From Apiospora phragmitis (taxonomy: Eukaryota; Ascomycota; Sordariomycetes; Amphisphaeriales; Apiosporaceae), in contig JAQQWL010000005.1 in the NCBI GenBank assembly GCA_038363925.1, forward strand, positions 558,001 through 622,000: a DNA stretch of 64,000 nucleotides, given 5' to 3'. The translations under genes and the position numbers were made by a program. The notes beneath the pieces were generated by a model. The model was not told the origin of the DNA and did not search any database. It worked only from the letters and a program-made list of their open reading frames with translations. Positions 1 to 20,786 of this stretch are shown here, in pieces (within the stretch, counting starts at the first letter, position 1; each line of letters begins with the position of its first letter).

Positions 1-1190
1 AAACGTATATCTAGCTTATTAATTACCTCGTCTAAATAATAAGGTATTATATTAGAGGCGCTAAATTTAAATTTAATATTATTTTTTATAAAAATAGTAA
101 AATACGCGGCCTTAAAGGCGATAAAGAACTTTAGCTTTATAATATAATTTATCGACGCTTTAATAAATAACTTAATTTCCTTCGAATATACTCGCTTTAA
201 CGGCGAATAAAGTACCACGTTTAAAAGCTGGAGTAAGTAGGAGGAGTAGGGAGGTATATTAAGTATAATAATGTCGTTATCCTTGCAGTATACCTTAAAT
301 TCGGCCGAAATATAGCTCTCGTAACCGTCTAGGATTAGGAGATAATAGGAGCCCTTTTTCCTCTCCTTCGTATACTTATTAAAATGCCGGATCCAATCTA
401 AGCCTATCTTATTATCAATCTAGCCGTTAATAATCGGTTTAATTACCTAATCACCCGGTAAGTCGTATTCGCGGGATTAATTCAAGAGGTAATATTAACT
501 TTAAACGATTAAGAACGGCGGAATGTACTAGCCCTACGAATTAATGTATTTAATAGCCGTTAACTATTCGCGATTACTAGGTTAAACCGACTTCGCCTTC
601 CCACGCCGATCGGCACGTATTATTATAAGTATCGACCCGATTATACCTATTACAAAGCTGGTTTCGTCGAAATTCTATATATCCTCGTCGAGGATACTAT
701 ATTTAGCCTTAATATTCGCGACCAACCTAAACCAACTGGAAATAATACCTAGATCCTTATAAAGAGCCCTTTAATAATTATATCGACGGTTTATTTGGGG
801 TTTAAAGTCCGGGTTACGGTCGATAAAGCGCCTAACCTAGTACTTACTAACGCGGTCGCCCCCGCGCGACGCGGTAAGGAGATTAGCTATATCTCCTATT
901 ATATTAATATTAGGAGGTATTCCTTAGGTATCCAGGTTAATTATATAATTATAAAGTACCTCCTCTTTTATTTAATTTAATTTATAGCGTGGATATCGGA
1001 TTTCGCGTCGTAGGGTTCGGCCTTAAATTCGATCGCGTAAAGTGCCTCGGGGGACGTCGTATACTCTCGTAGCAACATATACGGATAAAGGATTTATCGG
1101 ATTTCGCGTCGCTTAAATTACTAATACGATTTTATCTTCTTTTGATTAAATCGGTATTGTGGTTGTAAAGATATTATATATTAAAGTTTA
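1..1190 (-). mobile_element. RIP-degraded pogo/Fot1-like DNA transposon, cut by the window edge
   Basis: On the minus strand the block around 190-370 still reads like the catalytic core of a DDE_1 (pogo/Fot1) transposase. It has LLILDGYESY, where the family has LLILDGHGSH, followed about 25 residues later by NIPPYSSYLLQLL, where the family has MPPHSSHLLQPLD. Histidines have become tyrosines (CAC to TAC), as RIP would cause, and the frame is full of stops. Base composition is very AT-rich with abundant TA dinucleotides. The C-terminal part runs off the left edge. No terminal inverted repeat was recognised at the right, so that boundary is approximate. The 3.1-kb neighbour is a second element of the same superfamily in the same orientation. 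Confidence 0.75.
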
Positions 1191-1203
1191 ATAAAGTAGG
1201 TTA

Positions 1204-1240
1204 ACGTACTCTATAAGCGAATTAAATATATAAGCGAATT
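1204..1240 (+). repeat. Left terminal inverted repeat of the 1.9-kb pogo-like element
   Basis: It begins ACGTACTCTATAAGCGAATT and is preceded by TA. The 37 bp match the reverse complement of 3030-3066 with two differences, both transitions. Inside the TIR a 14-bp stretch starting TATAAGCGAATT occurs twice directly, which may be duplicated transposase-binding sites. Confidence 0.88.
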
Positions 1241-3029
1241 AAACACTGTCGCTACTTAATATAATAACAATATAAATTAATTCCATTATAACGTATAAAA
1301 TTAATTATAACTATTTAATATCCTCTTCTTTAGATATAATTATATTATTCTAACAGGTGCGCGCATTATGCCCAGGCTTTTTATAGTTTCTACAGCGCTA
1401 TAAGCGCGTCCTAAACGTCCTCGTACGACCACTCCTCCGACGCGATTCGTCTTATAACTGTCCATTAACGTCCCTCTAAGACTCAGGGTCTTCTCCAGCT
1501 TGTATACGAAGTGATCCTCTATCCTATAGCCGTTTCTTTTTCGTACGGCGGCGCCGGCTAAGTATCTCATTTGCCTCTCGTAATGCGGTTACCTCACCCT
1601 CTAAAAGAGCGAGCCGGTGCATAACCTGCGTTATACCTTTCGCAATCTAGTCAAGCCCAATTAAAATGGATGTCGGAGAGCTATTTTAATACCGTACGAT
1701 ACGATTCCGAACGTATTCGGTTTGGGATTGGGCCTCAATCGGGTTATTTAGGGTCTTTAATACCTAAAGGATAGGTAGGCCGGAAGACGTCCCTAGAGGT
1801 GTTAGAGTACGTAGCTTCATATCCAACCGTGAAATAACATATTCCGGATCGTACGGGGACGATTCCTGCCCCTCGAAAACCTCCCTATATATTTAAGACG
1901 GTAAAAGTTACCTAGAACGCTTTTAAAAACGCTGGTAGGAAGTCTTCCTTTAAGATATAGGTAATATACGCCCGCATAAGACCCTTAATTTCTTTCCTAT
2001 ACGACCTTTTCAACGTACGAAAATAGCCGATATCGAGAGGCTGGAGCTTGTAAAAAGAATAAGAAGGTATATAAAATATAATAATCGTATATTCTTTATA
2101 ATAAAGCTTAAAAACGGTCGAGTAATAGCTCTTATAGCCGTTAAGGATTAATAGGCGGTAAGCACCCTTCTTACGAGACTTTATATATTTATCGAAATAT
2201 CGAATCTAGTCCTCGCCTCTTTTATTCGTAGTCTAGCTATTTTTAATAACTGCGATTACCTAGTCTTTCGGTAATAAGCTATTTTCGTACTAGGAAGAGA
2301 GGTGCGTTTTCCCGGTAAAGATAATGTACGGAGGGATGGCGTAACCGTGTAATCCGACGCCCTGGATAACTATAACCCATTCCCGGTTCCCTTACTATAC
2401 TACCCTAGGCCTTCCGCGTCGATCGGAGGTGGTTACGACTATTTCGGACGAGATTTAACTTATAAAAAAGCCGGTCTTATCGAAGTTATAGATATCCTCC
2501 TCTTAGATCCCGTACTTATAAATTATATCCCGTACGAGGGGTAAACTACGCGCGATACGCGTCGGGATTTTCGTAAAGGACTCTCTAATAGTCGATTCTT
2601 CGATTAAAACGCGTCCGGAGGTCTAGTTATCGTCGTACGAAGTTCGAGGCCCAGTTAACGCCGACGCGTCCCGCGTCGCGTACGCCGAGTAATCGATTCG
2701 CTATATCTTTAACGCTACTTAACCGAGGAGGAAACGATCGCGAATCTAGCTTAATTATATATTAAATAATTAATTACTTTTTAGAATTAATAAACTTTCG
2801 AGAATTTATAATAATTTCGCGTCTTATAGGGCGACCGAGCTGTCGGTTACGGAGGGTTATATAAGGGACTTTATACGTTTCAACTGCCTTTCGGGTATTT
2901 AATTTTAGGTTATTTCGAAACGCTTAAAGAGCTAGAAGCATTTACTTCTCTTCCTAAGTATCGACTATAATATATTATAGTGGAAATGAAATATAAAGGT
3001 TATTTAGATAAAATATAACGAAAGTATTC

Positions 3030-3068: not shown

Positions 3069-5274
3069 GATAGAAAGGTGGGCGACTTAATAATACTAAT
3101 GACTTAATAGTAAACCACGTTAATTTAAATATAAAATATTTTACGTTTAAAGTAAATATTTATAAATAAATGATTATAATTAAAATTAAATTATATTTCT
3201 TTATTTTTATTAATAAACTATAAATAATATCATTATTACTTTTATTTAAGTTAATATTTACATTTTAATAAAGATAAATATTCTATCTTTTTAACGTTTA
3301 ATATATACTTAATGCTTTAAATATAATATAAAAAGCTCTATCTTAATTTTTAATTAATTTAGTATATACTTTAACTTTCAATTAATTCTATTTTACCTAT
3401 TTTCGTTATTTAAATATGAAAACTTAGAAAACGACAATTTAGGTGTGAAACGGCGGCTTATAGCTAGGGTGGATCGCGACGTGGTACCCGATCTTGTAGT
3501 GTTGAATGGGGATACTAAATGCGCTCGACCAAGAAGCTGCCTCGTTACTTGATCATCCCACATTATCCAATCATGCGAGCGAAGGAGGAGGAATCCATCA
3601 GCCTTTGAAATGCCTTGCCATTGTTACGAGCTGTCCTCTTTACTGATCCCACTGTCTTTAGGCCTCACTGACTATCCCTTGTGCTGCCTCGACTGGTCTG
3701 TCCCTATACCACCGAAAGCCTGGTCGGCTCGCTTTGCTTGAGTGTCTTATTGGGCTGCTTCACAAGTCCGTCGCGCATCGCATTTTGCTGAACGCCACTC
3801 CCGCTATGTAATGAACAGCACAGTATTGGTTTGCTGGTAGTCTTTACACCTCAATCGAGTCGGCCTTCTGATCCTGAGAATCAACTTTCAAATAATTCCA
3901 TCGGCGCATCGGAATGGCATCTTACTGGCTATTACTGCAGGTGTTGGCGTTCAGCTGAAACCTTTCGCCATATCTCATTATGTCGCATGCACTTTCCCAC
4001 ATGGCTCTTCACTTCCCGTCTCCCGGCCTTGTAAGTGTTTCTTTGCGCTGAAGATATATAGCTGTTAAGGCGCTGTAGGCAGAACTTGCCGGAGTCCACT
4101 GATGCTGAGCCCAAGTGGCCTGTGTGTGAAAGCCTGCTTTATAAGATTGCCAAATCTATACCTTAGTAATTGCCCCGCCTCGGCCAGACTTTAATCAAAA
4201 ACTTATTTTCGAGAGACGACCAAGGCAATAGATAAAGATAAAAGGTTTCTTCAGTGCATCTAGCACTGTTTCCAGCGCCATAGTACAGATTTAGGGCGTT
4301 TAGCGCTAAAACAACCCCCATCCAGTCAGCTCCAGTTGCTGTTGCCAAACTGAAATGGTTTCTCAATATGCATTCAACACGCCCACCCCTTTGGAACAAT
4401 GGCTTACCTTCGCCAGTATAACATCGCCATTTCCACTTGTGTACCCTGGACCTCCTCGCGTAGCCGATTCCCTTCCTCATTCTCTTTTTGTCTATCCGTA
4501 GCATAGATATCTATTTAGTTAACAGATAGCAGGTTTAATAGGGACGCGTTGGCGCGTATAGTGTCTAGCATTTTTAAAGCGGTGGATTGTGACAGAAGGC
4601 TGAGGCCCGAGCTTTAGTGGGTGGAAAACTTTCGCGAGCACTGAACGGAGGAAGACTGAAGTGCCGTAGCAGTGCATTATAGTAGCTAGTATATAACTAA
4701 TGTCTGTATATGGCTCAGGCCTTCGGTTGGACGATAAACTGGCATTTATTATCATGATCACCATAACGTTCCCATTTAATACAGATAGAGACCGAGACCC
4801 AACTCCATTAACCTCTACGAAACCAGACTGCCCATTATTAGGTTAACGTCTTCAGTTCTCTATATAGTATGCGATACGCTAAACGCGAACTTTTACTGTG
4901 AGCACGGTTAACGAGATCTGCTCACGACTTTTTATAGCTTATCTCGCTTAGTAATAACATTAGATTCTTATGTGGGTCGCGACTATAGTTTAACAGTGGT
5001 TATGGAACTAATTATTAAACGAGTTCCCTGGTTAGTGGATTGATTATGCACGTTGGCAGACAGGATGGTGGGAAACTGGTCGGACGAATCTCTAATAGTG
5101 TAGGTTTGAGTTCTAGATATTGGCGTGTTGTATTATATTGGTTTGAATAAGTAACTGGTAGTCGGAATCGTAGTATAATTTATCTTCGTATTAATGATTT
5201 TTTCACGGTACGCGTAGTTGAGTGTGCCCTTTTGTATTCCCTTTACTTGTCCTCCGCCGTCTATATATCCCGGA
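3069..5274. other. No gene recognised; AT-rich to normal composition boundary
   Basis: 3069-3425 continues the very AT-rich composition of the transposon block. At about 3426 the composition switches abruptly to ordinary GC content. In 3426-5274 the open frames are short (113 codons at 4163-4504 minus being the longest) and none shows a family motif I recognise. I see no RNA gene. Confidence 0.5.
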
Positions 5275-7328
5275 TCATGCCGCCGTGCTAACGAGCCCGA
5301 GCTCCCGGATAAGGATTGCCGCCGCCTTTTCACTAATTATAAGCGCCGTGTTATTGGTATTGGCACCCACGTTCTCTGGTACGATACTGAGGTCGGCAAG
5401 CTTCAGGCCCTCGACGCCATAAACGCCGAGGTACTGGTCCACCACGCTATTATTCTCCCACGGCGCCATCTTACACGTACCCAGCGAATGCCAGGTCGTA
5501 TTGACGTTCTTACGTAGGTGTTGCTCGATGGCTGCGTCATCCTCGGCCGCGTACTCGATGTTCTTCACGTCCGCGACGGGAGCCTCCTCGGTCTCGACGC
5601 ATGCCGCCTTGGACCCGGCCGGGAACTTCGGGTGGCCGGCCGCCAGCTCGCCGCGGTACATCTTGGTGCGCCGCATGAACTCACGCTACTTTTTATACGC
5701 CCACATCTGCTTTTTAAGGTCTATATCGTAGGGGTCGGTAAAGAAACTAACGTCGAAGTCGATCGGGTCGTCCACCTTGGGGCCAGTGATGTACAGGTGG
5801 CCGCGCGAATATGGGTACGCCGTATAGGTTCCTACCGTAACGTACTGTCCTACGGGGACTGTGCTCGGGTCGCCTAGGAAGCTATGCGAATATATGCTAT
5901 TAAAATACCGGAATATAAAAGATAATAGAGTCAGCGAGTGTATAAATACAACTTACCACATAATAGTAGCCATCAATATGAGTGGCCTACTAGGCGCGTT
6001 TTTGAAGTCTCGATCCCAAGCTTTCTAGAACTCGGGCCCCAGTGCGGCCAGCTCAAACTCAGACGGCCGAATCTTAGATACAAAGTTAATGCTATTCCAG
6101 CCCAGGGTCTTGTCCTTCTTCTCCAGCATCGTCGCGAAGTCGTCGGTGCGGCCTCCGAGCATCGCATCAATAGTCTCGTCGGGCCGGCACCCGGTCCGGT
6201 ACGGGTATAGAAACAAGTGATGGTCCTGGTAGTCATGGCCCACGCCGGGTACGTCCACAACCAGGGGCACGCCGGCGCGCTCCAGGACGCCGGCGTCACC
6301 TACGCCCGACCGCTCCAGCACCGAAGGTGTCCCATAGGCGCCGTAGGACACGACGACCATCTTGCGGGCCCGCACAGTGCGCGTAGGCGCTGCGGTTAGC
6401 GCGACAGTAGCCTGGAACGCCGGATTAGCGCGGTACTCGACGCCCACGGCCTTCTTGTTATCGTTAAACAGCACCCGGACCACCTGCGCCTCGATAATTA
6501 CGTGCAGGTTAGGGTATTTGTTACTATCTTTAAGCTTCGGATACAAGTACATATGCGTAGCATCCTGTCTCTTGCCCTCCTCGGAGACGGTCCGCAGGCC
6601 CGATGAGATGCCGTCGTTAGAGTCGAGGTCTTGCAGGTCTTGGATCTCGCGCATGCCCAAGTTCTTTGCGGCTGTAATAAAGTCGGCTTCGGACTCTTTA
6701 CCGCGGTAGCCTCTATTTATGACGTGGACAGGGCCCTCGTAGCCATGAACGGCCTTGTCCCTCGCGCCATAGTATATTTCTAACTGTGCTTATCGTGTCA
6801 AGTGCGAATGTTTATATAAGCGTACTTAAGACAGATCCCCCATGCCGATTCCTTACTTACTTTCTTCAAGTATAGAAGCAACTCGTCGGTTAACCACCCG
6901 GGCGTCTTCTACGAATCGAAGTCGGGCCGCTACGCTCGCGCGTATATCATAAAGTTAATAGACGAGCCGCCGCCCAAGATCCCGCCCGACGGCACAATAA
7001 GCGTGCGGTCGGCCAGCTATGGCGCCTTATTGCCTTAATAGAAAATGGCCGCTTTGTTCGATGGCTGTAGAAGTGATATAAATAGTGCCGGGTTCACCAC
7101 GAGGGGGTCATTATAATTGTCGCGCCCACCCTCGATGACGAGGATAGACAGTTTCGGGTCGGCCTCGGCTAGCCGGGCGGCGATAACGCAGCCGGCGGTA
7201 CCGCCTATTAAATTAGGATTAGTCAGTCAAAGGACTTAGTTAACGCGGTACGTAAATATTAAGTAGAGTGCGAAACTACTTCCTACAATAATAATATCGA
7301 CCTCGTCGATATCATCCGCGCTCTTCAT
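5275..7328 (-). pseudogene. GMC alcohol (methanol) oxidase-like pseudogene
   Basis: This is an FAD-dependent GMC oxidoreductase of the alcohol oxidase type, a peroxisomal class oxidising short alcohols with O2 to aldehyde and H2O2. Four exons: 7328-7280, 7204-6861, 6783-5957 and 5896-5275. The introns (75, 77 and 60 bp) have GT/AG ends, and joining them keeps phase, giving 614 codons. The first intron lies inside the FAD motif, whose second half reads GTAGCVIAARLAE. Further landmarks are LGGGSSINFMIYARA, the PGVGHDYQDHH segment, and the C-terminal WHSLGTCKMAP (active-site His region), VYGVEGLKLADLSIVP and NVGANTNNTALI. Six in-frame stops break it: TAA at 7035-7037 and TAG at 7017-7019, 6930-6932, 6909-6911, 6025-6027 and 5686-5688. 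All are explainable by C-to-T at CpA. Family assignment is confident; the alcohol substrate is inferred. Confidence 0.93.
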
Positions 7329-7587
7329 ATAAATACCCATAATAATCGATGGCAAAAGCAAATATACACTCTTTTATTATAACAATAGTAATACCAGACT
7401 AGGTTTGCTAGGATAGGGGATATTCAGATATAAAGTAGATGTCCAGCCTCGACTTCTCGGGGATATTTAGCTTTCATACGCAACCCCACATAGGATTGGT
7501 AGCTGTCATTATTTGTCAACAAGATTTCCGTAGGGCTTGCATACTAGGCGCTGACAGGTGACGCTCTACTTCAGCTCGGAACTTTTA
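7329..7587. other. Upstream flank of the alcohol oxidase pseudogene
   Basis: No gene or recognised motif. It separates the oxidase start from a dispersed repeat. Confidence 0.4.
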
Positions 7588-7860
7588 GTACATATACAGT
7601 ACGGTAAAATCCAGGTTCAGCGTCCGCCTGTTTGATGTCAAAAATCAGAACCCGAAGTACTATGGGGCACCTGCGCCGCGCGTAAGCGATATGGGAGAAG
7701 TACCGGTTATCGCTAAACAAGACTCTCGTAGGGCTGTATATTTGGTGCTGACAAGTACCGCTACCGCTAAGCCCTGTACTCCAGCTAGCTGCCTTGGTGC
7801 CAACAGTGGATCGGTGGATTACACCCTGGATAGAAGGGCATCTCTGAGCTGACTGACTGT
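7588..7860 (+). repeat. Dispersed short repeat (MITE-like), copy 1
   Basis: This copy is colinear with 44982-45264. Both start with GTACAT...ACAGTAC followed by GTAAAATCCAGGTTCAGC, and share AGAACCCGAAGTACT, TGGGAGAAGTACCGGT and GACAAGTACCGCTAC. The terminal motif recurs in inverted form at 51085-51130. There is no coding capacity. The right end is less clear here than in the 45-kb copy. Confidence 0.65.
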
Positions 7861-7910
7861 ATTAGGAGATATTCTACGCTGGTTCAAGACTCGAGTGCAT
7901 TTACTATAAT

Positions 7911-8166
7911 AATACTGTACATACAGTCGCTAGCGAAACCTGCGTCCTCTCTACACTCTCTTATAGTTGCCGTTTTAGACCCACTCTACAGGGGTAGCTA
8001 CTGACACCATGTACTCCTCCATTCTCACAAGTACCGGCCAATTCTGGCTTCGCTTACTCTTCCCTTGTGCATTCATAACTCGATCATAAAACTCATAAAT
8101 TAATTTATGCTCGATAAGGGAGCCAGAAGCTGCTAACAGCTGTACATGCACTCCTTGGCAATACAA
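7911..8166 (-). repeat. Repeat-borne gene fragment (family B), copy 1
   Basis: On the minus strand this reads HVQLLAASGSLIEHKLI, then after a gap YMVSVATPVEWV. The same segments occur at 16019-16441 (plus) and 51136-51354 (minus), for example LLAHGLVEHKVIQEYSNRF at 51 kb. The outer 45 bp, which contain AGAGAGTGTAGAGAGGACGC on the minus strand, are nearly identical to 16395-16441. I do not recognise the protein. It behaves as a dispersed repeat, truncated here. Confidence 0.6.
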
Positions 8167-8387: not shown

Positions 8388-11215
8388 TCAACTAGCATCG
8401 GCGCCGGTATACTCCAGCTCCCAAGCACGCAATGTTTCTAGCGAAAATAGATAATGAGGATGTTGAGCGCCCAAGACAGTTAGCGCAACCCGTACACATT
8501 CCCGCATTAATCCAAGAGCTTCTGGTAGTCGGCCTTGATCCTTTAACGTACAGGCAAGGTTGTTTATGCTGGCCAGCGTGTCTGGATGATCCGGCCCGAG
8601 TTTCTGCTTGCGAGTCTCCATCACTTCCACGTCCAGCTTCTCCGCTGCCTCCCATCGGCCTTGGTTCCAAAACGTCGACGCCAGGTTGGCCATGCTGGTC
8701 AGCGTGGAAGGATGATCCGGCCCGAGTTTCTGCTTGAAAGTCTCCATCACTTCCACCTCCAGCTTCTCCGCTGCCTCCCATCGGCCTTGGTTCCTGTACG
8801 TCGACGCCAGGTTGGCCATGCTGGTCAGCGTGGAGGGATGATCCGGCCCGAGTTTCTGCTTGAAAGTCTCCATCACTTCCACCTCCAGCTTCTCCGCTGC
8901 CTCCCATCGGCCTTGGTTCCTGTACGTCGACGCCAGGTTGGCCATGCTGGTCAGCGTGGAGGGATGATCCGGCCCGAGTTTCTGCTTGCGAGTCTCCATC
9001 ACTTCCACAAACAGCTTCTCCGCTGCCTCCCATCGGCCTTGGTTCCTGTACGTCGACGCCAGGTTGGCCATGCTGGTCAGCGTGGAAGGATGATCCGGCC
9101 CGAGTTTCTGCTTGCGAGTCTCCATCACTTCCACAAACAGCTTCTCCGCTGCCTCCCATCGGCCTTGGTTCCTGTACGTCGACGCCAGGTTGGCCATGCT
9201 GGTCAGCGTGGAGGGATGATCCGGCCCGAGTTTCCGCTTGCGAGTCTCCATCACTTCCACGTCCAGCTTCTCCGCTGCCTCCCATCGGCCTTGGTTCCTG
9301 TACGTCGACGCCAGGTTGCCCATGCTGGCCAGCGTGGAAGGATGATCCGGCCCGAGTTTCTGCTTGCGAGTCTCCATCACTTCCACAAACAGCTTCTGTG
9401 CTGGGCCCCATTGACCTCTCAGCATCCTCACAGATCCTAGCATCTCTATGGCGTTCAGACTTTCCTCGTGCGCCCGCCCGAATACCTTTATTCTGTACTT
9501 CATGGCATCCTCCGCCATCCCCTGCGCCTCGGGCCCCTGACCAATCATCTCAAGGTACCATGCTGCTTTGTATAGGATGGCAGTCCATTCTATCAGCGAC
9601 GTCTCCTCCTTTGGCCGCTGTCCTGCTGCGGCGACGGTATGCGGCAGAAGCGCCTGGCAAGTTGTCCAATTCTCGTACGCCCCAGTTGGGAGCTGGTCAT
9701 TGAGGCGAGAAATAAACTCAGACATCCATCTCTCCTGCCGTCCCTCGGCTTCAAGCCATCGTCTCGTAGCCAGCTGAACCAAGCGGTGCATTTCAAAGGT
9801 CTTTTCGTCTTCAACTGTAGAGATAAACGAATAATCGCGCAAAATTGAAATATCTTTCTCGAATTGATCATCCATACTAGAGTCCATTTCGACTTCTTCA
9901 TTAATAGATTTCTTCCTTGAACGCGCCCTCCCTATTAGGATTCTCTTCCACCCCTTTATCAATTGATTTTTCATTGCTGCCCGGGCTATTCGGCTTCGAG
10001 TCTGTCCGTTTGGCCCAGAAGAAGCAGCATCGTTTCTGCCTGAAAGCCCTAAGCAGGGTTTCCGGGATACCTTGTCGGTCGCAGAAGCTCATTAGCGAAA
10101 GTAGGTCGGCTGCCGATGGTCTTGTTTGACGTATGTGGTCGAATGAGATTTGCCATGTGATGATGATTGAGTTTTTGGCTTCTCGATCGCGCCGAAGTTG
10201 CCCTTGCCTGGCTTCGTAATCTAGGAGGGTCGCTTTCTGGTCGCTCTGTTCAAACTTCTTGAGATATTCTCGTATAGAGCAACGCGGTGCAAGCTTGGAG
10301 ATGTAGGCTGTCGCTTGGACAATAGCAAGCGGCATACCTTCTAGTGAGGCGGCGAGCGCTTCAGTGTTAGTCCTGTCTTGCTCCGTTCCTAGCTTTTTCT
10401 CGATAAGTGCTATCGCTTCCGCCTCGTTTATAGGTTCGACCTGGATGATATTGTCTCGTTCGACAAAATCTTCAGCCGCGCCCTTGTTTCGACTCGTGAT
10501 CAATATGGATCCGTTCTCGCAGATCGGGAGGTAATCCACGAGCCGTGATGGACTCGATCGAATTGCACTGTCAGCTTGGTCACCCCTGATCAGGCTTGGA
10601 GGCTCAAGAAGGAAGCTTGCATCATCGACATTATCGAGAATGAGTCTCCACCTTCTGTTCCTCCCGCCACGTAGCCAGTCGCGTACCAGCTGGAAGATGT
10701 TGTTCTGAGGATCGTGACGCCCGGGTATCTTGACATGATCGGCGATTTCCCGGAAACTCTGTTCGTATCGCGTCGCGTTACTCGCGTGAACCCAGAAAAC
10801 CCAGTTGTCTGGTGTTCGCTGTCGTGTTTGGTGCGCGTATTCGATGGCTAGTTGCGATTTTCTACCACGAGTCAGCTTCTCGCCCTATTACCTGTCTAGA
10901 TCGTGCATACCCAACGCCGCCCAGGCCCACGAGCGCGATACGTGTACCGGGAATGGCGCATGCTTGATAAATACGATCAAGTATGTCGCCTCGCTGGATG
11001 AAGTCGTTATCGCGGCCAAAGGGAATGATAGACGATGGGTTTGGTGGAGTTTCTGGCCGTTCTGAGTCGGGGCCTCGTTAGCGCGTGTCTGCGTGGATCC
11101 CTGGACTGATCCTACCTTGCGGGGCATGGTGATGAAATTCGGTATTGACCGAACCGTTGATCACTCCGGCCTGAAAGCCCGAGTTGCCCGTCCTAAAGTG
11201 TACTGCGGAAGCCAT
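8388..11215 (-). CDS. NB-ARC/TPR NLR (PNT1-like) with N-terminal amyloid-type motif; frameshifted
   Basis: A fungal NOD-like receptor: it senses a ligand through its repeats and passes the signal to a cell-death effector. Start ATG 11215-11213. Exons 11215-11116, 11061-10911 and 10861-8388; introns 11062-11115 (54 bp, branch GCTAAC) and 10862-10910 (49 bp). The second intron splits the P-loop, which reads GLGGVG then KSQLAIEYAH. Order: N-terminal motif NSGFQAGVINGSV (residues 11-23), linker with RPETPP, NB-ARC with Walker B-like WRLILDNVDD and GSILITSRNK, GMPLAIVQATAYI, then MHRLVQLATRRWL, seven 42-residue TPRs and a degenerate eighth. The frame changes once between about 9974 and 9901 in a variable linker. 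I see no plausible intron there, so a 1-nt indel (or assembly error) is likely. About 907 residues otherwise. It is head-to-head with a HeLo-like gene carrying the same motif. Confidence 0.9.
8560..9430 (-). repeat. Seven near-identical 126-bp repeats encoding TPR units
   Basis: TCCGGCCCGAGTTT recurs at a strict 126-bp spacing (about 8590, 8716, 8842, 8968, 9094, 9220 and 9346). Each unit encodes one 42-residue TPR containing LGPDHPSTL and NLASTYRNQGRWEAAEKL. Copies are almost identical in DNA except at a few codons. The residue after AEKL or AQKL is F, D or E, and METRK alternates with METFK. The 3n period leaves long spurious frames open on both strands. Confidence 0.93.
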
Positions 11216-11429
11216 TAATTGCATTCGTTCAGTTCAGACTGTGGAGGCTGATTGTTGATTACAGGGCGATCTTACGAAAGAGCAGGCTATTTGGTGGACG
11301 CATCCATGGCCGTCCTGCATGGTCATCCTCAGCCCCGTCAGCTCGGCGGCTAAAACCCCGCACATCAACGGCTTCGTTGCCTAGATGTTCGTTCGTCGCA
11401 TCAGCTCGATTCTCTAACGCGAGAAAACG
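11216..11429. promoter_or_regulatory. Bidirectional intergenic region between NLR and HeLo-like gene
   Basis: These 214 bp separate the two divergent start codons, so the region must hold both promoters. No clear TATA box was seen. The head-to-head arrangement suggests co-expression of receptor and effector (inference). Confidence 0.5.
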
Positions 11430-12292
11430 ATGGCAGATCCCCTCAGTGTCGCGGCCAGCGTGGTCGGCATTACGGTTCCAGCCCTACACGCTACAAGACT
11501 ACTCATTAATGATTTGCAAGAGCTTAGGGATGCTCCCAGTACTGTGCAACGATTGCAGGAAGACCTGCGCACTGTCGACGCTGCGATCACATCGCTTCAA
11601 GCAGTCGACGACCTGGAGTGGACAGTTCTAGGCAAAGAGGTTGCTGAAAACTCCAAGACGACAATCGGCACATGCCAAACGGCATGTGCATCTTTCCGGG
11701 CCGATATCCAACGCTGGACTCGACACTCTACCGGCGGAAAACTGTCCTGGCAGGATCGAGCAAGCGTAGGCTTCTTCAAGCAAGGCCCGATCAAGTCATT
11801 GACAGAGCAGCTTCAGAGCTGTAAATCGACCATCAACTCTGTTGTAGGCGTGGCAGTCTTGTGAGCTGGTTATCTGTCCATAAAGGTCTAAATACAATTA
11901 TGCTAACTTTAGTCTATAGATACGCTTCTATTCGGAACGGACATGCTACCGAAGAGATTAGAATTGCGATTTCTACGCGATAGACAGAGATCACAGAAGC
12001 CATTGGTACGACAAAGAATCGTTTTCAAGCTGTCGAAGACAGTATGGCGAAGTTGGAACCCGATCCTAGCGAGCAAGATCAGCCGAGCCTTGAACAGGAA
12101 CAGAAAGCCTTCTCCGCTTCACTTAAACTGTTGCAGGAGCTGTTGGTCAAGCTGTAGGTAGAGACAGTAGTAAAAGCCACTGCACAAAGCCAGGGTTCTG
12201 TTGGGACAGTCACGTTTGGGAGTTAAAACTCGGGCTTTCAAGCTGGAGTGATCAATGGTAGGGTGAGCGGGATTAGCTTTGGGAAGCAGTAA
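11430..12292 (+). pseudogene. HeLo-like domain protein with C-terminal amyloid-type motif; RIP-inactivated
   Basis: This is a candidate cell-death effector partnered with the adjacent NLR. Exon 1 is 11430-11860 and exon 2 is 11920-12292. The 59-bp intron (GTGAGC...TATAG, branch GCTAAC at 11902-11907) keeps frame, giving 267 codons before the final TAA at 12290-12292. Residues 1 to about 140 match the fungal STAND N-terminal/HeLo-like family: start MADPLSVAASVVGI, then LRDAPSTVQRLQEDL and a helical LTEQLQSCKSTINSVVGVA. Residues 247-259 read NSGFQAGVINGRV, whose core equals the N-terminus of the NLR. Three premature stops lie in exon 2: TAG 11981-11983, TAG 12155-12157 and TAA 12224-12226. The last is just before the motif, so the domain and motif are no longer made as one protein. 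All three fit CAR-to-TAR RIP changes. Function is inferred from HELLP/HET-S precedents. Confidence 0.85.
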
Positions 12293-12890
12293 AACTAGCA
12301 GGTTGGGAGAGAGGCAAGAGAACTGAGGGACAACAAGTGTGGGAATCGCGTAGACCCCGAATAGTAGCATCTGTTTAAGGGATAATTGTGCAGCGTTAGC
12401 AGTAACTAAATACAATTCTTTAGAATTTCAGAACAAAAATGAGAGATAGTGGGGTAAACAGAACGAGCCCGTCCACTGACCAATAGCGTAAGCGCTTTTT
12501 CGCTGATGGCTCTGAAAAGACGCTGTCAGGGTCCTGCTAAAAGTACCGTGGACAGGGATATTGCACAATAAATCGGCTTGACCTTGCAGCACCGAAGACA
12601 TGCCACCATCCCTTGCGACAAAGCCCAGAGACAAAGCAATCGACACCATAGCCTTCGACGCCGTTTCTGGCGCCTGTTATAGGTAACTCTTGCTAGCATG
12701 GAGTCTGCGTTTCTGTCAGGGTCTAATGGACTCCTATATGCAAGTTGTTACAGGCCGTTCCACGAGGTTCCCATAGTTTAGACAACGGCAAGTTGCACCT
12801 AACATGGCACCAAGACTCCCGCAATTATAAATCGAACTGGTTGAAGTTATAGTGCTTGATATAGTATTTAACGATAACTAAAGAGTAGAG
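12293..12890. other. No gene recognised
   Basis: This is the 3' flank of the HeLo-like gene. The only open frame of note is 73 codons (12428-12649 minus), without recognisable motifs. Confidence 0.4.
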
Positions 12891-12899
12891 GCCGCAGAT

Positions 12900-13778
12900 T
12901 ACAGCACGCGCGCGGTCCGACGGGTTCGTGCGAATATGCGGTGTTTCGGGTCGGCTAGAGCACCGCCGAACGGTGGTGGACGGCCGCGTAGTATTACTTT
13001 ATCTATATTAAATGTACTCTGCGATCGATTAATTAAGAAGCCGTGTATATACTAAGACGAGATAGTTATATTTCTTTAGGACGAGTTCGAAATTTTAATT
13101 ATTATATATAGTATTAGTAGAGCATTAGCCTCGATCCGGTGGTCGAACAAGACGGCCCGACGTGTCGCGAAAGAACGAAACGTCGATTTACGGGACCTCT
13201 ACCTCTATAAGCTATCTGCCTTCCGTTCCTATCAATTAGTTTATATAAATAAGTCGGGCTGCGATAAGCGTATAGGGTTTCGCCGAACTGGCTGGTCGCC
13301 GCTAAGCGTGACACCGGTATAGATAGCTAAGTTTTATCGCGGCCGTCGCTACCAGATCCTACCGGCGTATGCGCAGGACGGCATTATATATTCCCGTATA
13401 TTCCAAGGCTCTACCGATAGCGACGTACTCGAGAGCTTCCTAGAGGAGCTTTTACTATATTATAGCCGGTGGCCCGAGCCTAAGTCGGTTTTAATTATGG
13501 ATAATGCTCGATTCTACCGATCCGACAGAATTGAGCGGATGTGCGACGAAGCCGGCGTAGTTTTATTATACCTCCCGCCGTACTCACCCGACCTTAACCC
13601 TATTAAAGAGTACTTCGCCGAGCTGAAGTAATTCATTAAGCATCACTGGCAAGAGTTTGCGGATACGCCGGAGCCAAACTTTATAGCATTCCTAGACTGG
13701 TATGTTCAGGCAGTGGGTAGTAGAGAGCGTAGTGCACAGGGTCATTTTCGACATGCTAGTATTGAGATCGAGGAGTAA
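12900..13778 (+). mobile_element. RIP-degraded Tc1/mariner-type (DDE_3) transposase remnant
   Basis: One plus-strand frame can be followed through stops from about 13110 to the TAA at 13776-13778. It reads KTARRVAKERN, then NKSGCDKRIGFRRTGW, where the family has DESGCDKRIGFRRTGW. Next come RYQILPAYAQDG, SVLIMDNARFY (second catalytic Asp) and YLPPYSPDLNPIKE, where the family has NPIEE. The first catalytic Asp is now Asn and the last Glu is now Lys, both G-to-A transitions. Stops include TAG near 13319 and TAA near 13630. TIRs were not identified, so the left boundary is approximate. It is inactive by loss of catalytic residues. Confidence 0.85.
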
Positions 13779-14033
13779 TGACCTAGGCGTTTGAAAGGGC
13801 AAAGAATTTATATAGACTTAAAGAATCTAAGAAATTGTTACATCTTCAGCCAGCCACCCATCTCCTGCGCTTGTTAAATCATCTTCTGTTGGGAGATATC
13901 TCTCCGCACTTCTCTACAAGTCTACCAGACTCCACATGTATTTAGAATATTCTATAGACACGGTGTTCACTTCTGACTAGGTCTATAAAGACCCAGCCTT
14001 CTACCAGGCTTCAGGAGTGGAAGGCCAAGGCAC
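13779..14033. other. No gene recognised
   Basis: A short spacer between the Tc1/mariner remnant and the next pseudogene, with nothing assignable. Confidence 0.4.
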
Positions 14034-17903: not shown

Positions 17904-20786
17904 TTATAGAGTGATAGGAAATATATTATTGTGATCTCGAATACGGAATTTCACGTTAATTTGAAATACGTCCGTAGTGAGGCGCTGCCGTAGACGTTTT
18001 TGGATACGGATTGTGGCACCTGGGATCCGGAATACGGCTTTCCGCTGCTTTAATTCGGTAATAAAGTGCTTTATTAGCGTGCCTGGAGTAAGGTCGCAAA
18101 GTATTCGGCCTTGGTAGGAAATACCCTTTTTATTACGTATCGGCTTGTCCGTTAACTCCAGATAGAATATAGTCGTGATAAGAATATTTGCGATTTGGGC
18201 CACCTCGGAATTTTGCGTATGTTGTCGCTGAGTTTCGTATAGTAAAGGCTCTATTAGCTTAATAGTATCGAGGCGCGGCTCCGCACCTGATAGTTTCACA
18301 TCCAATCGAAACACCTGTTTTGCTATACTGTTTAAGAAGCCAGATTTCGTTAGTAAGTTGTGCAGTCGGTTGCCATTCATCACCGGGCTTGATAATATGG
18401 CCGCCAATGCGCCCTGAAACGTGTTAATGATCGAGAACATCCATTTCCTCGAGGACGGCAATTGCTGCTCTAGCGGGCTGCTCGGAGAGCCAGGTGAGGG
18501 CGGGCTATTGCGGTCTGCGCAATGGCCATTGCCTATAGAAAGTGCGAGGTCCGTCTTGAGGCCCCAAGGCCTCAATTTGGAGGCCACGGTAAGACCAAGC
18601 GCGATTGGGCTATTGACTGAGAATGCGCCGTCTATGAAACGCCTAAAGCCTTTGATGCGGTGGGGCTTGAAATACCTGCAATCGAGTCAGCCGGGCTCGG
18701 AGTTTTTCGACTATTGGTATAAACCACGGTGCGGCCGTTATTACCCGGGCGCTAGTAACCGTTAACACCTAGTCATGGGAACGCATACTGGAATGATTTA
18801 CGCGTCGTAGACCTTGATCTGGCCGGCCGTCTTGCTAGGAAGCGTTAGTCGGTAGTGAAGGATGCTATCCGGGCTCGATCTGTTAAAGTTTATAGTAATG
18901 AAATTCCCTTTTAAGATATTAGTTATAGTGACACCTATTTTAGCACCTCGAGCTGTGGCCGGGGAGTAGTTATGAAGGGTGCTTTCTCGACTAAACTGTT
19001 CTTTAAGGGCACTTTGGATATTTTCGGAGGGATACACCGAACCGGCCCAAATGGAATGAAGATAGGACACGACCTTGATGAGAAAATAAGCGTGGGGGTA
19101 TCGGTTACGAAAGGCTTTGCGTGCTAGTCGCTGGAAAATTTGGATATAATCGTTGGGTCCGAGGCCTTTTTAGAATATGGTAAGGATAGCTAGCTTACTT
19201 AATTGATTATTAGCGCGATGAACAGTATATAACTGCTGCATGCCATATTACCTGAACTTGTTCCGTATATTACGTCGAAGTAGTTTTGAATGTGATAGTT
19301 CTTTAGGAAAGGTTCCGTAACTTTCTCTATAAGCTCTAAGAGTCTTAGCGGTGCCACCGCTTTGACACCACCACTATCAATTCCGAGGACTTTGAGACTC
19401 TTCGTGTCTGGCCGAAACCTGAACTTCGCGCTATTCGTCGGGGTAGCGTAGAAGTAATAGCTCTCGATAAGCCTGAACCCGTTTGTATCTAATTCTCCGT
19501 ACCTTTTGATGCAAACCTCGCATATCGTATGCTTGCAGGGTAACGTATGCTCTGGTGGTCTTATTATACACATTAAATAGGTCCTTGTCGGCTTATACGC
19601 CTCGAAATGCTTGGTGAACAGCCGGATAGACTTCTCGTGGCTTTCTTTGATGGCAGTTACCCTCGCAGGTGGGTACTCTGTGGTAATGATGCCCTTTAGC
19701 ATTTCTGTCGAACTATTCGGAAGATACAGCTTGCTTGCGATCTTCTCCTAAGCACTTTAGTAGGAGGCCTCGAAGACAGTCCGAGGGTGGAATCTCTTAC
19801 GCAGTGTTAAACCGGAATGCTAGTTAAGGAAACTTGTTACGTACTATGCATACCAGGAGCGAATATATTGACCATAATGCTGGAGGCGGTAATTGGGAGT
19901 ATAAAAGTCGTTAGATGCTCCGAGGCTACGAAATCTCGTATAAACCTATATAGATGCAATGTTGCATCTGGCGGTATAGGGTTCGCTACCCGCGACAAGG
20001 CGACGTAATTGAAAGGTTGCGCGCCGATAAAAGTATTATAAGCGCCCTCTAAAAAGGTATAGAAATGGCGCGAATAAAAGGCCAGCCCACGAGTGCGTCG
20101 GTTTAAGAGAGCCGTAGCGGATTGTGTTGTAATGAAATCTCGGAGTTGCCCGGGAAAAGATAAATAATAGATAGTAAGGCTAGAGAAACCCTCTTAAAAG
20201 GTGTCGCACATTTTCCGTGGAGCTTATTAAAGAAATTGTCCATTGTGCTCATCGCTGACACGGAGCCCTCCGTAATAATTACCAGCGTTGGTAAAGCTGG
20301 ATCTTTGAGCTGCGGCGCGTGCTCTAACCACGCCGTCACAAAGTCTGTTAATCCCGCAAGACCACCGAAGTCCTCCAGGAATGTGCAAATAATGTCTGCC
20401 AGCGCCCCAAAGATGCCAGAATAGACGTGTAGAGCCGCAGAGGTAAGCAGTCCTCCGTATCGGGGAAGTAGGTCCCCTGATATTGGCCCCTCAGAGGGGA
20501 CTCGACCATGTAAACATGAGGGCCCATCAGCAAATAGCATACTTCTGTCACTGCATGGTTTAAGAGGAGGTTTATGTAAACGAATGCATGCCTTGTCGAC
20601 ATAGTTAGGAACACGGCCCATTAAACTTTGGAAACTTCTGGCTTTGGATGATTCGCCTATTAGAAGGACGAGACTCGGCGCGGGATCCTCGATGCCTAGG
20701 ATGTCTTCCAAACCCACTGTTCTTTGTAAACAGAGGTCTTGGCCTTTTTGGCGTATCTTCAACCAAGTTACTGATTCGCTCTTCAT
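17904..20786 (-). pseudogene. Patatin-like phospholipase domain protein, RIP-degraded
   Basis: Remains of a large fungal patatin-type protein (lipid acyl hydrolase fold). From the N-terminus: a degraded nucleotide-binding-like segment PSLVLLIGESSKARS (20.7 kb), then a Cys-rich knuckle PEHTLPCKHTICEVCIKRYG (about 19.5 kb). Next is the patatin core LGIDSGGVKAVAPLRLLELI (oxyanion DGGG now DSGG), YFDVIYGTSSG (nucleophile Ser, about 19251-19264) and IDGAFSVNSP (DGA catalytic Asp, about 18624-18632). The C-terminal domain ends at 17904. An intron probably follows GTSSG. The fragments lie in several frames with stops between them, so no protein can be made. In other fungi such proteins are often linked to NLR-type defence; that role is only inferred here. 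Confidence 0.75.

Follow-up and report, generated by a model that had tools for sequence, protein, structure and literature searches.

A divergent gene pair of Apiospora phragmitis probably represents a recently decayed NLR/HeLo-like amyloid signalling system of the PP type

In a 64-kb window of the genome of Apiospora phragmitis, a reed-associated fungus of the Amphisphaeriales (Sordariomycetes), a window that comprises the whole stretch of DNA analyzed here, a gene for a NOD-like receptor (NLR) and a gene for a HeLo-like protein, the putative effector, lie head to head, and each carries a closely similar short motif at one end of its product. Does this locus encode a fungal amyloid signalling pair, to which class does its motif belong and are the two genes still intact? 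Our analysis indicates a PP-type NLR/HeLo-like amyloid signalling pair of the PNT1/HELLP kind that has recently decayed in this assembly, a reading to which we assign a probability of roughly 0.85. This kind of system is already known, as PNT1/HELLP-type pairs have been published for Podospora and Chaetomium, and it is not a new kind. The observed basis consists of the gene arrangement, the domains, the matched motifs, their conservation in other species and the breaks in both genes.

Two divergent genes with matching termini

The NLR starts at position 11215 on the minus strand and the effector at position 11430 on the plus strand, with 215 bases between the two starts. The spacing, divergence and coordinates given by the first-pass annotation of this DNA are borne out in the sequence, and the three short introns that it had proposed all fit (54 nt and 49 nt in the NLR, 59 nt in the effector). 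The same holds for the positions of the motif, which spans residues 11-23 of the NLR (NSGFQAGVINGSV; 11147..11185, minus strand) and residues 247-259 of the effector (NSGFQAGVINGRV; 12227..12265, plus strand) if each in-frame stop is counted as one residue. Over these 13 residues, the two copies show one difference. The observation of a motif-sharing NLR/effector pair is thereby confirmed as real.

A chance match is ruled out by cross-species profiles and shuffled controls. Two profiles were built, one on the N-termini of nine NLRs from other species and one on the C-termini of 20 effectors from other species or from records without a species label, and both were searched against the 2012 stop-to-stop open reading frames (ORFs) of at least 20 amino acids in the window. 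The NLR-only profile retrieves the NLR head (E = 5.2e-22) and the effector tail (E = 4.9e-8), with the next best ORF at E = 1.2. The effector-only profile retrieves the tail (E = 3.8e-12), the NLR head (E = 1.6e-7) and a piece of the effector immediately preceding stop three (E = 0.0076), followed by a match at 0.12. Among the homologues, the effector profile matches all nine NLRs (worst E = 4.3e-9). Conversely, at E ≤ 10 the NLR profile recovers every one of the 20 effectors, the 12 listed ones at ≤ 1.2e-9. As controls, 1000 shuffled effectors give E = 1.7 at best and 450 shuffled NLRs give 0.69. Single proteins of other species also bridge the two genes in tblastn, as residues 4-24 of the Cadophora NLR P0124 hit the effector tail (E = 6.9e-5) and residues 241-260 of the Apiospora arundinis effector P0130 hit the NLR head (E = 1.5e-4).

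A search with residues 1-60 of the NLR at E ≤ 1 gave nine of 26 candidate homologues, and one with residues 100-267 of the effector gave 29 of 248. The effector counts are based on the 20 of these 29 hits that extend to the C-terminus; P0001, P0002, P0022, P0069, P0070, P0150, P0151, P0152 and P0153 were excluded, being taken to end before the motif by sequence or length (sequence for P0150 and P0153, length together with the covered part for P0151 and P0152). Both retrieved sets carry the motif throughout (9/9 NLRs and 20/20 effectors), and orthologues without it at either end, the finding named beforehand as speaking against the pair, did not turn up with these motif-bearing queries. The motif match is genuine and common to different species; as the homologues were found with such queries, it is not proven for every relative.

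Within the window, the two motif copies face in opposite directions and share 91% identity over 33 bp, which also fits a recent local copying event (gene conversion or an inverted repeat) of no functional significance. Yet members of the same two protein families in other genera carry this motif at the corresponding ends, and gene conversion could keep the copies alike while leaving a function uncontradicted. As the cross-species profiles match, local copying is largely refuted and we consider it highly improbable as an explanation of the shared motif.

Class of the shared motif

Among 24736 Pfam models, a single family is reported for either end of the pair, namely PF17046 (18.4 bits, E = 0.0021 for the NLR; 15.5 bits, E = 0.016 for the effector), in both cases below its curated cut-off of 23.2. 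These scans were reported up to E = 10, with HMMER filters discarding most matches above about 0.1. According to the available text of PMC12261475, PF17046 is the PP motif under the misnomer SesB. In the parts of the literature at hand, PP is defined as a pseudopalindrome centred on Q, occurring in HeLo-type proteins and their NB-ARC/TPR neighbours (PMC3321046), and its core pattern is given as NxGxQxGxN (PMC9815663). The same family is the sole Pfam match in 14 of 15 motif segments and in all ten NLR N-termini scanned, those of a paralogue and of the nine homologues. Among these ten, the homologue P0126 alone exceeds the cut-off (24.8 bits). PF17046 is also found in 11 of the 20 whole effectors. 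The HET-s/HRAM motif (HET-s-related amyloid motif; PF11558) and the sigma motif (PF17106, NACHT_sigma) are reported for neither end and for none of the 15 motif segments within the same limits, the filters dropping most weak matches, and both classes were set aside as the scans report neither. The profile comparison with HRAM, PP and sigma that had been suggested for both termini thus returns the PP family only, with scores under its cut-off. The earlier placement of the motif nearest to the PP class is upheld by this sole match, by the PF17111 domain of the effector and by the presence of the motif in all retrieved homologues.

The agreement with the published pattern is incomplete. The NxGxQxG core is retained in 25 of the 29 homologues (nine NLRs and 20 effectors), and the full NxGxQxGxN occurs in none of them and in neither window copy. 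At position Q+4, the NLRs have I (8/9) or V (1/9) and the effectors I (16/20), V (1/20) or S (3/20), but never N. The position thereafter is N or H in 9/9 NLRs and 16/20 effectors. The letters NSGFQAG were not found in the literature searched, which says little, as the alignments are in figures. Since the final N of the pattern is lost alike on both partners, we file the motif as a PP variant; the suggestion of a possibly distinct motif subclass is partly supported by the absence of the last N in 29/29 homologues. The missing N and the low window scores could also mean that the motif belongs to HET-s/HRAM, to sigma or to an entirely separate amyloid class. That the scans gave PF17046 alone for both ends, that most homologues keep the core and that the P0126 N-terminus passes the curated cut-off make this quite unlikely.

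A more tentative idea is that this lineage has a separate specificity class within PP, in which N at Q+4 is replaced (mostly by I or V) and N or H usually follows, with sensor and killer matched across species. Beyond the core tetrad, the spacing of this variant would be closer to that of the receptor-interacting protein homotypic interaction motif (RHIM). As the published pattern is preserved in a paralogous NLR of this genome, the variant could insulate two side-by-side amyloid death circuits and may have arisen for that purpose.

Architecture and probable decay of the two genes

After removal of two predicted introns, the NLR reads from its motif through an ERPETPP linker and an intact Walker A into NB-ARC and TPR. 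All its parts lie on the minus strand. Exon 1 (11116..11215; 33 codons plus 1 nt) carries the PP-type motif. Splicing of the first predicted intron (11062..11115; GTAGGA...CAG) yields the ERPETPP linker found in homologues, which is encoded together with the first half of Walker A by exon 2 (10911..11061). The second predicted intron (10862..10910) lies within Walker A, and its removal joins GLGGVGKSQLA as in the nine homologues. Exon 3 (9907..10861) covers the NB-ARC region, which by itself scores 20.4 bits (cut-off 23.5) and reaches 72% in the alignment to P0121; the uninterrupted homologues P0121 and P0122 score 32.0 and 33.1 bits. The C-terminal TPR part extends to the stop codon (8388..9905; TPR_10, E = 8.7e-120) and comprises six consecutive units of 42 amino acids (8391-9905) with a mutual identity of 88-100% (mean 93% over 15 pairs). 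Such near-identical units are typical of the repeats of fast-evolving fungal NLRs. Against NCBIfam, all matches of the NLR parts stay below cut-off except for a short PPR repeat model, and the NLR head matches no solved structure by sequence at E ≤ 10.

Between the NB-ARC and TPR parts, the reading frame shifts near 9906 (9905..9914), either through a break or through a very short, odd intron; the first-pass annotation does not mention this shift. Searches by tblastn with P0121 and P0122 switch frame at this point, and the parts on both sides align well to both proteins. An intron as the cause was considered for 37 candidates (at least 35 nt and of fitting length), of which four start with GT and 33 are GC-AG; the assessment covered the four GT-type ones and gave no convincing intron. 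One of them, GTGGAA (9951-9912, 40 nt), situated in a variable linker, may be an intron; the other three GT-type candidates run into residues aligned to homologues. A pass with a stricter pattern left two candidates, one of which would delete the conserved GIPETLLR stretch.

The effector lies on the plus strand. Its exon 1 (11430..11860) encodes the HeLo-like domain PF17111 (E = 3.5e-21, 76 bits, cut-off 27.2), in line with the HeLo-like/STAND N-domain that had been recognized at this N-terminus. The family currently bears the name PigL_N in Pfam, a JGI label reads 'Fungal N-terminal domain of STAND proteins', and we take it to be Helo_like_N. In public records, these HeLo-like proteins (P0001, P0024, P0130, P0131 and others) are labelled 'Azaphilone pigments biosynthesis cluster protein' and in one case 'ribonuclease F1', names that look misleading here and seemingly carried over. 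Exon 1 has 272 homologues at E ≤ 1e-3; the effector alignment of 115 rows combines the window exon, 14 later effector hits and 100 of the 120 listed among the 272. A model of the 144-residue HeLo-like part is a helical bundle with a mean predicted local distance difference test score (pLDDT) of 85.1, and Foldseek gives no match for it at E ≤ 0.001, HET-S being absent among the best 50 matches listed. The model of full-length P0130 (mean pLDDT 58.8, tail below 50) was left out of the fold search. By sequence, the HeLo-like exon matches no solved structure at E ≤ 1.

The effector intron (11861..11919; GTGAGC...TATAG) is likewise removed in the deposited A. phragmitis model P0001 (164 amino acids), which is identical to effector exon 1 and terminates at the first stop. 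Exon 2 (11920..12292) contains three in-frame stops, all upstream of the motif, at 11981-11983, 12155-12157 and 12224-12226; the third is TAA and the other two are TAG. Uninterrupted homologues of 267 amino acids each are present in A. arundinis (P0130) and Anthostomella pinea (P0132). In exon 1, the window protein is identical to P0132 at 111 of 143 residues, compared to 104 of 143 for P0130 over the same part. Protein divergence is thus not raised, and the decay therefore looks recent. The downstream pieces of exon 2 remain close to P0130, with 45/57, 19/21 and 20/21 identical residues.

Exon 1 without excess divergence and the well-preserved NLR repeats would also suit an intact pair in A. 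phragmitis, with stops and frame change that are assembly errors or strain-specific. Such an origin would have to account for three separate stops in one exon as well as a frame change in the partner gene, and P0001 also ends at the first stop, though it derives from the same assembly; we rate it as unlikely. In some Sordariomycetes, UAG is subject to A-to-I editing during sexual development, and the stops might accordingly be passed in vivo, giving a stage-limited effector. Two of the three stops are TAG and the downstream pieces are conserved, but the third stop, TAA, is not opened by one-site editing and recent decay explains the conservation equally well, so that such editing seems exceedingly improbable.

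The first-pass annotation had ascribed the three stops to repeat-induced point mutation (RIP). The stops themselves are confirmed, and RIP as their cause is plausible only, by leakage from RIP-like flanks. The RIP dinucleotide indices of effector exon 1 (-0.72) and of the NLR (-0.51 and -1.05) are not RIP-like, the composite index of effector exon 2 is borderline (+0.03) and positive values occur nearby (+0.48 for 7001-8000; +0.27 for 12001-13000). Five of the 64 1-kb segments of the window are RIP-like by the chosen cut-offs (1-3000, 5001-6000 and 13001-14000), and these flank the pair. The assembly was also searched for a second copy of 11200-12300, which did not turn up at E ≤ 0.001; this search skips very common words.

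Comparison with known systems and other pairs

The available descriptions of the PNT1/HELLP pair of Podospora anserina (Pa_5_8060/Pa_5_8070; PMC7885112) report neighbouring genes, an NB-ARC/TPR NLR with an N-terminal motif with a G-x-Q-x-G core and a HeLo-like protein with a C-terminal motif (Podospora residues 214-271). They also report that prions form, that the NLR head brings about conversion and that cells die. The A. phragmitis pair resembles it in arrangement, domains and motif core, but its motif is without the final N of the pattern and both its genes look broken. This likeness is drawn from the published descriptions, none of the 29 effector hits being labelled Podospora or Chaetomium, though several have no species label. 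The HELLP/SBP/PNT1 cluster of Chaetomium globosum is similarly described, in the sections at hand, with a PP motif, a HeLo-like effector and an NB-ARC/TPR NLR (PMC5485727, PMC7885112). Unlike that cluster, the A. phragmitis locus has no third motif-bearing gene, as the profiles are significant for only two genes among the 2012 ORFs of the 64-kb window. The Q-x-G core is also shared with the mammalian RHIM of RIPK1/RIPK3, whose consensus is given as (V/I)-Q-(V/I/L/C)-G in the text consulted (PMC9444067), although A. phragmitis reads F-Q-A-G, with F and A where RHIM has V/I residues. RHIM moreover connects kinases upstream of MLKL rather than an NLR to its executioner, as far as the available part of PMC5485727 describes it.

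By analogy with the published pairs, the NLR would sense a trigger and oligomerize, the motif in its head would fold as amyloid and template the C-terminal motif of the effector, and the converted HeLo-like effector would kill via the membrane. The sequence evidence supports a PP-class pair. Given the PF17046 match, the definition of PP and the published PNT1/HELLP data, the pair most probably functions in the manner of PNT1/HELLP. Several points weigh against this interpretation. Both window motifs score under the curated cut-off and, like all 29 homologues, lack the full pattern. Relatives without the motif are under-sampled because both query regions contain it. Adjacency of NLR and HeLo-like effector is known from the A. 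phragmitis genome alone, and the A. pinea effector P0132 and NLR P0122 are on different contigs, so not neighbours. The fold comparison of the effector model, including the question of an MLKL-type four-helix bundle, stays inside the chance range for helical bundles. Finally, the three effector stops and the NLR frame change suggest that neither gene is intact in this assembly.

The genome holds other divergent NLR/HeLo-like pairs. In the one at C17:398669-399668, the NLR has NHGFQVGTN, which equals the published PP pattern, and the HeLo-like gene has an in-frame TAG; no motif-bearing tail for this effector turned up in the 7 kb that were read. Stops abound in a related pair at C3:81.9-82.9 kb (three TAG and eight TAA in the HeLo-like part). 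Another divergent pair is present in two copies (C17:412276-413442 and C3:68155-69321). Its effector frame ends in NNSRAFQGQMDAASFARMFG, and SQVFQGNASGN occurs in an open stretch that lies between the two genes and upstream of the NLR linker. Neither piece has a Pfam match, and the two are possibly another amyloid-type motif pair. Elsewhere in the window, the list of ORFs contains, as judged by eye and with no family search made, a piece resembling a patatin-type lipase (GIDSGGVKAVAPLRLLE; 19199-19702, minus strand) and one resembling a GMC-type oxidoreductase (5275-6660, minus strand).

The locus would place a PP amyloid NLR pair in the Apiosporaceae, and its uninterrupted homologues extend motif-bearing sensors and effectors to several other ascomycete genera, with sensor and killer altered together at the same motif position. 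As natural sequences, these homologues can be used to ask which positions of the motif determine prion specificity and how far PP is from RHIM. As a paralogous NLR with the published pattern is retained in the same genome, insulation between motif variants is testable. In the A. phragmitis genome itself, the killer arm appears to decay beside a retained receptor family.

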